A stretch of 62,251 nt of DNA, from positions 1-62,251 of the IMG/VR virus record IMGVR_UViG_3300035661_000066; one strand, given 5' to 3'. The notes beneath the pieces were generated by a model. That model did not search any database. It saw only the letters and a program-made list of their open reading frames with translations, and had not been told where the DNA came from. The translations under genes and the position numbers were made by a program. This document shows positions 10,743 to 13,954 of this stretch, piece by piece; the first letter of the stretch is position 1; every line of letters starts with the position of its first letter. Source of the stretch: a virus.

Positions 10743-11048
10743 ATGGAATCTTTCAAAATCTTCATGGATATTGCAATGCCCATCGCTACGGGGCTGCTGA
10801 CCATCGTTATCACGATGATGTACCACTGGATGAAGGTGCAGGACAACGCGGATCGCGATAACGCTAGAGACATCCGGGACGTCAAGGACGCCCTGTACAA
10901 CCACCGTGAGCACGTGGCCACGTACTACGTGACCCGTGACGCGCTGGAGCGCACCGAGGCTAAATTCGAAACGGAGCTCAAGGATCTCGGTCAGAAGGTA
11001 GACCGCGTGCTGGAGCTGCTTCACAACAAGGCAGACCGGGACCACTAA
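10743..11048 (+). CDS. Holin candidate with one membrane segment and cytoplasmic coiled coil
   Basis: This 101-residue protein has one membrane segment (about 10-27, IAMPIATGLLTIVITMM) followed by a charged helical domain with heptad character (about 33-95). It is the first gene of the lysis cassette, immediately before the endolysin. That layout suits a class III holin or a holin accessory protein. The second small membrane protein at 12186 is an alternative holin. Confidence 0.55.
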   Translation: MESFKIFMDIAMPIATGLLTIVITMMYHWMKVQDNADRDNARDIRDVKDALYNHREHVATYYVTRDALERTEAKFETELKDLGQKVDRVLELLHNKADRDH

Positions 11049-11059
11049 GGAGATATCGC

Positions 11060-11557
11060 ATGGCCACCATCACTGCAGCCCAGGCCGGTAGTCAGAACGT
11101 CGTTGCCTTTCTGGACATGATCGCCATTAGTGAGCTGGGGCCAGCCCTGCTCAAGGCCTCGGATGACGGGTACAACGTGATCGTCGGGTCTACCGCGTCT
11201 AAACCCATCCTGTTCCACAGCTACGCGTCCCATCCCAACCGGCTGATCAAGCCACCCTTGATCCCGGTGCCTAGCTCGGCTGCCGGCCGCTACCAGTTGC
11301 TGGCCCACTACTTCGACACCTACAAGGTGCAGTTGCGGCTTCCCGACTTCGGGCCGCTGAGCCAAGACCGTATCGCCATCCAGCAGATCCGGGAGCGCCG
11401 CGCGTTGCCCCTGCTGCTGGCGGGGGACTTTAAGGGGGCGGTCGAGGCGTGCAATACCATCTGGGCCAGCCTGACCGGCAGCCCGTACAAGCAGCACACC
11501 CACCCCATCGACTACCTGGCTCAGGCTTACACCAAGGCCGGTGGGATCATTGTGTAA
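11060..11557 (+). CDS. Endolysin, lambda R-type lytic transglycosylase
   Basis: This 165-residue protein follows lambda gpR along its length: FLDMIAISE with catalytic Glu25 (lambda WSE), GYNVIVG, HPNRL, GRYQLLAHYFDTYKVQL (lambda GRYQLL), SQDRIAIQQIRERRALP and IWASLTGSPY. The family cleaves peptidoglycan to 1,6-anhydro products. No signal peptide is visible, so export depends on a holin. AGGAG lies 7 bases before the ATG. Confidence 0.93.
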   Translation: MATITAAQAGSQNVVAFLDMIAISELGPALLKASDDGYNVIVGSTASKPILFHSYASHPNRLIKPPLIPVPSSAAGRYQLLAHYFDTYKVQLRLPDFGPLSQDRIAIQQIRERRALPLLLAGDFKGAVEACNTIWASLTGSPYKQHTHPIDYLAQAYTKAGGIIV

Positions 11558-11577
11558 CCAGAGGAGAGAACAAGGCA

Positions 11578-12189
11578 ATGCAACAAACCCTTCAGACATT
11601 CACGCTAGGCGATCTGGCGCAGTACACGGCGGAGGGCCAATACTCCGCCAACGCGTCCCGAGACTTCCAGCTGTTCTTCGTCGGCCGTGACGACGTCCAT
11701 GATGTGCTTAAACATGTGTTAAGACGAGTCTCGTCCAGCCTGTACCTGAGCATGTTCGGCTACGACGATGACGAGCTTAATGACCTGATCATGGGCATCG
11801 TCCACAATCCCAGCATCACCTGCCTGATCACGCTGGACAAGAGCCAGGCGGGCGGCGTGCACGAGAAGCGCCTGCTGGACTCGGATGCCGCCAAGGACCC
11901 GATCGGCTTCAACACCCACTTCGTGATCGGCCAGTCATCGACCCACCAGATCAACCACACCAAGGGCTTTGTCGCCGATGGCCTGGTGGGTGGGGAAGGT
12001 TCCACCAACTGGTCGACCAGCGGCGAGGGTACCTTTGTCGTGACTGGACAGGCTGGCGGCAAGGGCTACAAGGCGCAGAACAACACCCAAACCATCTTCA
12101 CCTGCCCGGATGCGGTGCGTCGCTTTCAGGCGCAGCTCATCGCTGAGCACATGGCAGCTCAACACCAGGCTAAAGGAGCTACGAAATGA
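11578..12189 (+). CDS. Phospholipase D-like (HKD) protein in the lysis cassette
   Basis: This 203-residue protein has one HKD motif, H127-x-K129-x4-D134, followed by GSTN (141-144), as in PLD-superfamily enzymes that act as dimers (Nuc-type nucleases, some phospholipases). GAGGAG precedes ATG 11578; an upstream in-frame reading inside the endolysin gene is not needed. It lies between the endolysin and a membrane protein and has no signal peptide. It could attack phospholipid or nucleic acid at lysis. Family membership is clear; substrate is inferred. Confidence 0.75.
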   Translation: MQQTLQTFTLGDLAQYTAEGQYSANASRDFQLFFVGRDDVHDVLKHVLRRVSSSLYLSMFGYDDDELNDLIMGIVHNPSITCLITLDKSQAGGVHEKRLLDSDAAKDPIGFNTHFVIGQSSTHQINHTKGFVADGLVGGEGSTNWSTSGEGTFVVTGQAGGKGYKAQNNTQTIFTCPDAVRRFQAQLIAEHMAAQHQAKGATK

Positions 12190-12419
12190 ATCTCCCCCAA
12201 CTTTCGGATAACACCCGTAAGACCCTGAACATCGCTGGGCTGCTCGCTATCTGGGGTGGCATGGTGATCTCGGGTCACGCCTCGACCCCAGCCGAGGTGC
12301 AGTTTCTCAACGTGATCCAGGCAATGCTCGCTGGGCTGAGTGTCCATGCGTCCTACGTGGCTGGCGTCGCTACCGTGCAGGTCCAGGTGGCCCAGCCGCA
12401 ACCCAACAAGGAGAGCTAA
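12186..12419 (+). CDS. Small membrane protein, alternative holin
   Basis: This 77-residue protein has two hydrophobic segments (about 16-31 and 39-66) separated by a short polar turn, and a polar Gln-rich tail. It overlaps the HKD gene by 4 bases. Two-segment topology fits class II holins, but similar small proteins can be antiholins. No family was recognised. Confidence 0.5.
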   Translation: MNLPQLSDNTRKTLNIAGLLAIWGGMVISGHASTPAEVQFLNVIQAMLAGLSVHASYVAGVATVQVQVAQPQPNKES

Positions 12420-12420
12420 C

Positions 12421-12873
12421 ATGATTGATAAAGACCACCGTGGCATCATTACCACGCTGACCGCCGCCGGCTTCATGTCCGCCATCTGCCTGTCAATTAG
12501 CTTGCTGACCGCCTGCGTCACCGTCCCGCAACCCCAACCGGTGCCGGTGAGCCAGCTGCTCCAGCAAGGTTGCCCTTCGGTGCAGGCCGTGAACCAGGTG
12601 CTCCTGGTACCCGGCACCCTGTCGCCGCAGGGGCTGGCTATGCTTCAGCAGATCGCTCCGGTCGTGGATCTGGTGTGCCGCACCGGCTCCCAGCTTAAGC
12701 CCGAGGACACGGCCCAGCTAGCTCGCCAGATTCCGGAGCTGGTCAGGTTGATCCAGGAGTCGACCCTGCCTGAGGAGCGCAAGACGCGCGACACGGTGGC
12801 GCTGACCCTGCTAGCGGCTGCATTGAATCAGCAGGTGCCTCCGCTGCAACCCACCGCGAGTCAAGCCAAATGA
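12421..12873 (+). CDS. Lipoprotein of the lysis cassette (spanin candidate)
   Basis: This 150-residue protein carries a signal peptide with lipobox LTAC and lipidated Cys32, followed by a Pro-rich stretch (PQPQPVPVS). ATG 12421 is chosen because GGAG precedes it. An outer-membrane lipoprotein next to the endolysin suggests an o-spanin or unimolecular spanin role. I see no embedded partner gene and no clear C-terminal transmembrane segment, so the role is tentative. Confidence 0.6.
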   Translation: MIDKDHRGIITTLTAAGFMSAICLSISLLTACVTVPQPQPVPVSQLLQQGCPSVQAVNQVLLVPGTLSPQGLAMLQQIAPVVDLVCRTGSQLKPEDTAQLARQIPELVRLIQESTLPEERKTRDTVALTLLAAALNQQVPPLQPTASQAK

Positions 12874-13670
12874 AGCCACTTCGCCTAGCCTTTAGCGGCT
12901 CCGGCTTCCGCCTGGGCGCCCACGTGGGTGCCTTGGAGGCGGCGCTCCAGGTTGGATTTACACCGGTCGAGCTGGCAGGCACGTCCGGGGGCGCCATCGT
13001 TGCGTCCCTGTATGCCTGCGGGATGGGCGCTAAGGAGCTTGAGACCCTATTCCTTGCAACTGACTGGGGCAAGTTCCTGACGCTTGATCTATGGTCGGGG
13101 GTGCGCCGCGGCGGCTACTGCGCTGGGGATGCCTTGCTGGAGCTGCTGCTGGACAAGACGCAGGGCAAGACCTTCAAAGACCTGCAGGTGGAGCTGAAGG
13201 TGGTAGCAGCGGACCTGGTCACCAACTCGGAGGTCATCCTCAGCCGTGAGACCACCCCTGACATGCCGGTGGGCCTGGCAGCTCGTGCCTCGGCGTCCAT
13301 CCCGTTCGTCTTCGTGCCGGTGACCTACAAGGACTGGCTGCTGGTAGATGGTGGCTGCTGTGATAACATCCCGGCGGATCACTTGATCGCGGACGAGGTG
13401 CCGCGGGTGGGGATCCAGCTGACGGAGCCGGCGGCGCGACTGGACGCTGGCAGCTACAGCGTGCTGGACATGGCTGGTCGTGTGCTAGATCTGGTGCTAG
13501 CCTCCAGCGAGGCGGGGCGCGCGCTGGCAGCGCAGCGTAACCAAGCTCATATCGTGGAGGTGCCAACCAGCTACGCCTCTAGTCTAGACACCAAGATGAC
13601 CTTCGCCACCCGCCAGCGCCTGTTGGCTGACGGCTACCGGCTAAGCGCCAAGCTCCTCAAGACGCTGTAA
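12870..13670 (+). CDS. Patatin-like phospholipase
   Basis: This 266-residue protein has the three patatin signatures in order: a Gly-rich oxyanion motif (GSGFRLGAHVG, about 10-20), the nucleophile elbow GTSGG with Ser39 (37-41), and catalytic Asp160 in VDGG (159-162). Together they form a Ser-Asp dyad for acyl ester hydrolysis of phospholipids. It overlaps the lipoprotein gene by 4 bases and ends the rightward operon. A phospholipase here suggests membrane damage at lysis, but release or host-membrane remodelling roles are possible. Confidence 0.85.
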   Translation: MKPLRLAFSGSGFRLGAHVGALEAALQVGFTPVELAGTSGGAIVASLYACGMGAKELETLFLATDWGKFLTLDLWSGVRRGGYCAGDALLELLLDKTQGKTFKDLQVELKVVAADLVTNSEVILSRETTPDMPVGLAARASASIPFVFVPVTYKDWLLVDGGCCDNIPADHLIADEVPRVGIQLTEPAARLDAGSYSVLDMAGRVLDLVLASSEAGRALAAQRNQAHIVEVPTSYASSLDTKMTFATRQRLLADGYRLSAKLLKTL

Positions 13671-13674
13671 CCAG

Positions 13675-13693
13675 GGCCGCCCTAGCGGCGGCC
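13675..13693. terminator. Convergent-operon hairpin
   Basis: GGCCGCC (13675-13681) pairs with GGCGGCC (13687-13693) around a 5-base loop. It starts just after the patatin stop and overlaps the end of the leftward gene at 13682. It lies where the rightward lysis operon meets the leftward early operon, so it probably acts in both directions. T-rich tails are weak. Confidence 0.55.
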
Positions 13694-13954
13694 TCTCCTG
13701 TCCCCATCTGCCTCTCGCACCCAATTGAGCCTAGCCTCCTCAGCCTGTGCCTTAGCCGCCAGCAGCGCCGCCCCCAGCTCAGGATCGCCTGGGCAGTCCT
13801 GCAGACGCTGCGCCAGCAGCTCCTGCAGCGCGAGCGCTTCCCGGTAGGCCAGCCACGCCTTGGCGCGCCGCTGCACCTTGGGCAGATGGGCGAGCAGCAG
13901 GATCAGCAAGCCTAGGCTGGTTAGCAGCCACAGCGACAGCATGATGTAGGCCAT
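13682..13954 (-). CDS. Membrane-anchored protein of unknown function
   Basis: This 90-residue protein has one N-terminal membrane segment (about 4-23) and a long Ala/Leu/Glu-rich amphipathic helix. It is the last gene of the leftward early operon. Topology resembles inner-membrane spanin subunits, and it faces the lysis cassette across the terminator, but its strand places it in the early operon. Function unknown. Confidence 0.5.
   Translation of the reverse strand: MAYIMLSLWLLTSLGLLILLLAHLPKVQRRAKAWLAYREALALQELLAQRLQDCPGDPELGAALLAAKAQAEEARLNWVREADGDRRGRR

Follow-up and report, generated by a model that had tools for sequence, protein, structure and literature searches.

A lipoprotein and lipase unit at the spanin position of a phage lysis cassette suggests enzymatic breakage of the outer membrane

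Rz/Rz1 spanins, encoded after the endolysin, carry out the outer-membrane step of phage lysis by fusing membranes. A survey of 677 phage genomes counted 182 embedded and 228 overlapped spanin pairs, and left open how the 91 of 677 phages that are spanin-less break the outer membrane (Kongari et al. 2018, PMC6139136). Here we analyze a 62,251-base virus record from IMG/VR (IMGVR_UViG_3300035661_000066; ‘the window’ denotes this whole stretch), in which a probable nuclease and a patatin-like lipase follow the endolysin at the usual place of the spanins. This arrangement suggests enzymatic breakage of the outer membrane: position and lysis step would be those of Rz/Rz1, but a predicted enzyme would act where spanins fuse membranes.

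A patatin together with a phospholipase D (PLD)-family endonuclease has already been proposed as a lytic cassette in phage WO (PMC9203015), and the lipase lysis module described here is a variant of that idea of patatin-based lysis. The likeness includes a holin-like protein with one transmembrane segment and a charged coiled coil, which in WO adjoins the patatin-like phospholipase. WO differs in having an ankyrin protein and neither endolysin nor spanins, and the patatins were compared by description only; the window, unlike WO, has a lambda-R-type endolysin, a lipoprotein and a two-transmembrane protein, with no ankyrin Pfam match in the cassette. The LysB esterases of mycobacteriophages are likewise lipid-acting hydrolases of a lysis cassette directed at the outermost lipid layer, but their target is the mycolyl-arabinogalactan of mycobacteria, and we liken them by description, not sequence. 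In one library of open-licence papers, which lacks most subscription titles, we found no report of endolysin-carrying Gram-negative phages that have a lipase instead of spanins, and the spanin survey (PMC6139136) nowhere uses the word ‘lipase’.

Six genes on the + strand, tightly packed through overlaps or short gaps, occupy positions 10743-13670 of the window:

10743-11048, + strand: 101-residue protein with an N-terminal transmembrane segment and a charged coiled coil (phrog_462, E 8.2e-11; KD19 maximum 1.94, in the first transmembrane segment)
11060-11557, + strand: lambda-R-type endolysin, 165 residues (phrog_90 endolysin, E 1.7e-44)
11578-12189, + strand: single-HKD (PLD-superfamily) protein, 203 residues (HxK(x)4D and GSxN motifs, AlphaFold2 model, family alignment)
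12186-12419, + strand: small, holin-like membrane protein, 77 residues, with two hydrophobic segments seen in the sequence (KD19 maximum 1.46)
12421-12873, + strand: lipoprotein LP150, 150 residues, three cysteines (lipobox LLTAC)
12870-13670, + strand: patatin-like phospholipase, 266 residues, dyad Ser39/Asp160 (Pfam Patatin PF01734, E 9.6e-28)

ATGA overlaps join the HKD gene to the two-transmembrane gene and the lipoprotein gene to the patatin gene, a single base separates the two-transmembrane and lipoprotein genes, and a purine-rich, ribosome-binding-type sequence precedes every gene except that of the patatin. The 101-residue protein is probably a holin-type or lysis-accessory protein. 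The endolysin, 54-57% identical to those of BcepC6B and phage IPK, gave no Pfam match despite its strong match to phrog_90. No signal peptide was seen in the endolysin, the HKD protein or the patatin. A first-pass annotation of this DNA had described a closely packed, one-strand cassette with a lambda-R-type endolysin and a patatin; the overlaps and short gaps, the phrog_90 match and the patatin evidence given below bear this out, and the residues it named (H127, K129 and D134; S39 and D160) are correct in the sequences. Convergent with the patatin gene and 11 bases from its end lies a gene on the - strand (13682-13954) for a 90-residue protein whose N-terminal transmembrane segment and charged remainder recall the build of an i-spanin, although the gene runs opposite to the cassette.

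By sequence, the patatin is a genuine lipase of the lysis operon, with putative phospholipase activity. It scores well over the curated cut-off of PF01734 (98.1 bits vs 27.7) and carries both halves of the patatin dyad, the GxSxG serine and the DG[GA] aspartate. S39 and D160 are invariant in 53/53 phage patatins (the window copy, L032 in our numbering of loci, counted), and G10 and G12 of the glycine-rich oxyanion stretch are kept in all 53 as well. Since they are invariant among the relatives that cover them, neither this dyad nor H127 and K129 of the HKD protein can be put down to chance. An alignment-based scan of viral contigs found the patatin relatives, and a single-sequence scan found none. 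Patatin matches in ‘Acinetobacter phage MD-2021a’ were rejected as phage examples, their neighbours being ordinary bacterial genes; the stretch examined of the record so labelled (L170, CAKLQH020000002.1) resembles a bacterial chromosome. Similarity to PADLOC phospholipase effectors (E 1.5e-8) and to the NCBIfam lipase of cyclic-oligonucleotide-based anti-phage signaling systems (CBASS; E 4.7e-5) raises the alternative of a CapV/CBASS-type effector with an anti-phage or abortive-infection role. We consider this highly improbable, as the NCBIfam match, at 22.8 bits, lies far under its cut-off of 200, the cassette showed neither a cyclase nor a sensor, and the neighbours are lysis genes.

The arrangement recurs in many related prophages, with the lipase at the same place. 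Scans of viral contigs returned 74 patatin, 80 class-3 lipase (Lipase_3) and 52 HNH loci. Matching lipase reading frames numbered 199, or 155 without identical C-termini, and dropping 19 with E >1e-40 left 136: 53 patatins, 78 Lipase_3 proteins and 5 divergent proteins, of a type that L113 revealed first and whose Lipase_3 match falls below cut-off. At 70% identity they form 41 clusters, and the Lipase_3 catalytic residues are invariant (78/78). The module runs from the endolysin through an optional nuclease, a small membrane protein and a lipoprotein of about 150 residues to the lipase, whose slot is filled by a patatin, a class-3 lipase or, where no lipase is recognised, DUF1353. The lipoprotein gene lies at most 120 bases before the lipase gene in 112/136 loci, and in 102 of these 112 pairs the two genes share 4 bases or a single base. 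An endolysin homologue is found within 5.5 kb of the lipase in 94/136 loci and a nuclease near it in 58/136 (HNH 50, HKD 8). HNH-family proteins occur in 60 non-identical cassettes, usually just downstream of the endolysin, the position held by the HKD protein in the window. Contigs of Paraburkholderia phenazinium, Paludibacterium purpuratum and Pararobbsia alpina also carry the module. In three cases a patatin-type and a Lipase_3-type contig share one IMG genome number (L180/L290, L176/L311 and L185/L309), and one host thus seems to hold both lipase versions in different prophages. In Pseudomonas phages D3 and phi297 (L393 and L394, 1739-2347, - strand) an HNH endonuclease gene is divergent from the adjoining lambda-R-type endolysin gene.

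Among cultured phages, Burkholderia phage BgManors32 and Shewanella phage vB_Sb_QDWS resemble the window in having an endolysin, a nuclease, a small membrane protein, a lipoprotein and, last, a lipase. They differ in that an HNH protein (phrog_8048 in BgManors32) replaces the HKD protein, a class-3 lipase replaces the patatin and the endolysin is of GH19 type; the endolysin and HNH genes of QDWS are also separated by two others, including a tail gene. The records OK094664.1 (Shewanella phage QDWS) and OP650936.1 (‘Hujiaoplasma phage zrk29-1’), both 47,902 in length, gave identical match values, and one of the host labels is probably wrong. Burkholderia phage Magia shares the succession of holin, endolysin and a nuclease in the HKD slot, but this nuclease is HNH and is followed by Rz/Rz1 spanins. 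Just upstream of the Magia holin, a gene on the - strand (L171:2411-3190) is annotated ‘outer membrane-associated lipid esterase’, despite the spanins. In BcepC6B and IPK, which have the closest cultured endolysins, Rz/Rz1 directly follow the endolysin.

No embedded or overlapping Rz/Rz1 pair with a proline-rich o-spanin was found on either strand of the window. The detector used sees embedded and overlapping i-spanin/o-spanin pairs, not separated or unimolecular spanins, and was loosened twice after missing known pairs (tuning set L001, L171, L169, L008 and L141). Applied to nine cultured phages with lambda-R-type endolysins outside the tuning set, it found pairs in 7/9 and none on the opposite strand. 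It found none on either strand of the complete phages BgManors32 and QDWS, and registered such pairs near only 2/136 lipases (L001 and L284; opposite-strand control 0). The Pfam Rz profile (PF03245) flagged Rz in L284 and missed the spanins of Magia, BcepC6B, L001 and L008; with four spanin-carrying controls missed, its near absence elsewhere says little. Of the 60 HNH cassettes, 37 had a lipase only, 7 spanins only, 16 neither (L363 and L368 of this class by eye resemble spanin carriers missed by the detector) and 0 both, giving a Fisher p of 0.0006 on a set that is not bias-free, as it pools all fetched loci including those fetched for their lipase. In the seven spanin cassettes the HNH proteins share 71-81% identity with counterparts in lipase cassettes, which shows exchange at this position.

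Gene order, coupling, catalytic conservation, swaps of lipase and nuclease type and the great rarity of embedded or overlapping pairs are what one would expect of a late lysis operon whose membrane protein-lipoprotein-lipase unit replaces the usual Rz/Rz1 pair, a reading that we hold with even confidence for and against. Several points weigh against it, beginning with the separated and unimolecular spanins that lie beyond the detector. The Fisher value ignores relatedness: the HNH proteins form 13 clusters at 70% identity, two of which have both lipase and spanin members. No exclusivity appears in the HKD set alone (1/8/5/113, p 0.36). L001 and L284 have spanins and a lipase together, and in L001 Rz/Rz1 stand at the lipoprotein’s place with the lipase retained, which favours the lipoprotein, not the lipase, as the spanin substitute. 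In BPP-1, which has been listed as lacking spanins, no lipase gene follows the endolysin gene. A coupled lipoprotein is missing from 24/136 lipase loci, and, given the count of endolysin homologues (94/136), some of the 136 cannot be taken as established lysis cassettes. The reading is also a sequence-based prediction. Because lipase and lipoprotein travel together, spanin exclusion cannot tell which of them is the substitute, and the lipoprotein alone could be.

Alternatively, the lipoprotein and a membrane partner might form an unusual two-component spanin, the lipase being an accessory that speeds debris breakdown; we consider this unlikely, though it deserves real weight. It would accommodate the exchange in L001 and the range of partners of the lipoprotein, which include DUF1353 as well as lipases whose folds are unrelated. 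The 101-residue protein of the window, with its i-spanin-like N-terminal transmembrane segment and coiled coil, could in principle be read with the lipoprotein as a separated spanin pair. However, the protein before the endolysin in BgManors32 and QDWS has its hydrophobic stretch at the opposite end, near the C-terminus, and no conserved i-spanin partner was seen. In L007 and L114, moreover, the patatin directly follows the HKD protein, with no lipoprotein between them. A unimolecular spanin was rejected for the window lipoprotein, which has a lipobox but no C-terminal transmembrane segment (KD19 maximum 1.03 after residue 50); KD19 reaches 1.6 in 32/113 members of its family. In phmmer the window lipoprotein matches L109 (1.2e-12) and L002 (2.1e-6), and its match to the family profile, in which it is included, is by construction. 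Only two lipobox-like reading frames of at most 200 residues occur across the window, this lipoprotein and a 76-residue frame on the minus strand.

The patatin could also be a moron, a cargo gene that closes the late operon, with a role in lysogeny, virulence or host competition. It is the last gene of its strand block, with the convergent gene behind it, and patatins of two Burkholderia prophage islands have been listed as virulence-linked morons (PMC2920897). Coupling to the lipoprotein, exchange with Lipase_3 in the same slot and the near exclusion of spanins would be unexpected for random cargo, and we regard a moron as quite improbable.

On sequence and model, a putative nuclease activity is more probable for the HKD protein than a phospholipase activity. 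The protein has one HxK(x)4D motif (H127, K129 and D134) and GSxN on a PLD fold. Motif and fold are what place it in the PLD superfamily, since its Pfam PLDc_2 match is below cut-off (12.9 bits vs 27) and it has no PHROG match. The viral scan for relatives retained 80 of 154; among 128 HKD relatives in all, H127 and K129 are kept in 126/126 having those columns, and D134 in 91/128 only. An AlphaFold2 model built from a 23-relative profile (mean pLDDT 83) was ranked by VIA, in which rows within 1 Z count as tied. NucT came first (Z 17.2, root-mean-square deviation 2.1, 147 aligned), followed by a phospholipase D (16.5), FAM83B, Nuc and Zucchini (15.9). Foldseek placed BJ-TSA-9 and a phospholipase D ahead of Nuc and NucT, and profiles of PDB sequences gave NucT on top, weakly (E 0.034). 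An ordinary phospholipase D was rejected, the protein having a single HKD motif and NucT ranking first.

It is rather unlikely that the HKD protein nevertheless acts on phospholipids, for instance by hydrolysing cardiolipin, and so works as a second lipase alongside the patatin as the first-pass annotation had proposed. MitoPLD/Zucchini, deposited as ‘mitochondrial cardiolipin hydrolase’, is about 1.3 Z from NucT, and the phospholipase D ranks between the two. The best fold, however, is that of a nuclease, and the slot is filled by an HNH nuclease in related cassettes. The HKD family extends to actinobacterial contigs and actinophages, and to bacterial chromosomes where the neighbouring genes are not of phage origin; a few of these members have lysine-rich N-termini. 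For members in actinophages, or standing alone in bacteria, an outer-membrane role does not fit. The chromosomal relatives in genome contigs L115-L143 come from Paraburkholderia and from metagenome-assembled genomes of Acidobacteria and Bacteroidia, with no nearby phage genes, and several have an N-terminal extension. A search of 50 whole viral records with an HKD gene found a Pfam patatin in 4/50 and Lipase_3 over cut-off in 1/50, so most HKD genes do not adjoin a lipase. The earlier picture of two phospholipases therefore survives for the patatin and not for the HKD protein. Its suggestion that lipases may replace spanins likewise gains from the recurrent lysis operon with a lipase and from the rarity of spanins near it, and loses the HKD protein as a second lipase.

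DUF1353 follows the same lipoprotein in some relatives, including those in Aquitalea and Castellaniella, and stands in the lipase slot at:

L348:6502-6882, DUF1353 after the same lipoprotein
L341:7011-7400, DUF1353 after the same lipoprotein
L109:2202-2624, DUF1353 after the same lipoprotein
L111:8138-8524, DUF1353 after the same lipoprotein

It carries an HDxxY motif and is perhaps phospholipase A2 (PLA2)-like, a lead drawn from sequence and model. VIA ranked a bacterial PLA2 first for its model (8k1w, Z 7.0; next row Z 3.7), and Foldseek with the same model gave nothing significant. A profile search of PDB sequences returned no PLA2, and alignment to genuine PLA2s by hhalign gave a weak E of 0.14, though the HD and VR.FGG stretches align. 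The PHROGs label of the family is tail assembly chaperone, and in Segz_1 a gene so named, taken as DUF1353 family, adjoins an Rz-like spanin.

From these sequences, a mechanism of enzymatic lysis can be proposed. The small membrane protein would open the inner membrane, and the endolysin, HKD protein and patatin, having no visible signal peptide, would leave the cytoplasm. The endolysin, by homology, would then cut the wall. Next, the patatin might deacylate phospholipids of the outer membrane’s inner leaflet and of inner-membrane remnants, the resulting lysophospholipids breaking the outer membrane; the outer-membrane lipoprotein would perhaps recruit or control it. Finally, the HKD protein could cut the released DNA and thereby thin the lysate.

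More broadly, and with somewhat less than even confidence, we propose that betaproteobacterial temperate phages may replace spanins by lipolytic disruption of the outer membrane, using a lipoprotein and an exchangeable lipase (patatin, class-3 or perhaps PLA2-like DUF1353), often behind a DNA-clearing nuclease, such that wall, DNA and membrane would all be digested enzymatically. Read as part of a lysis module, such lipases call into question the virulence-moron label of the Burkholderia prophage patatins (PMC2920897). The lipase unit appears to be traded for spanins among cassettes whose HNH genes are closely similar, and its presence in two cultured phages, BgManors32 and QDWS, makes the proposal directly testable. 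A lipase unit at the spanin position would thus be a concrete candidate for the outer-membrane step of spanin-less Gram-negative phages.

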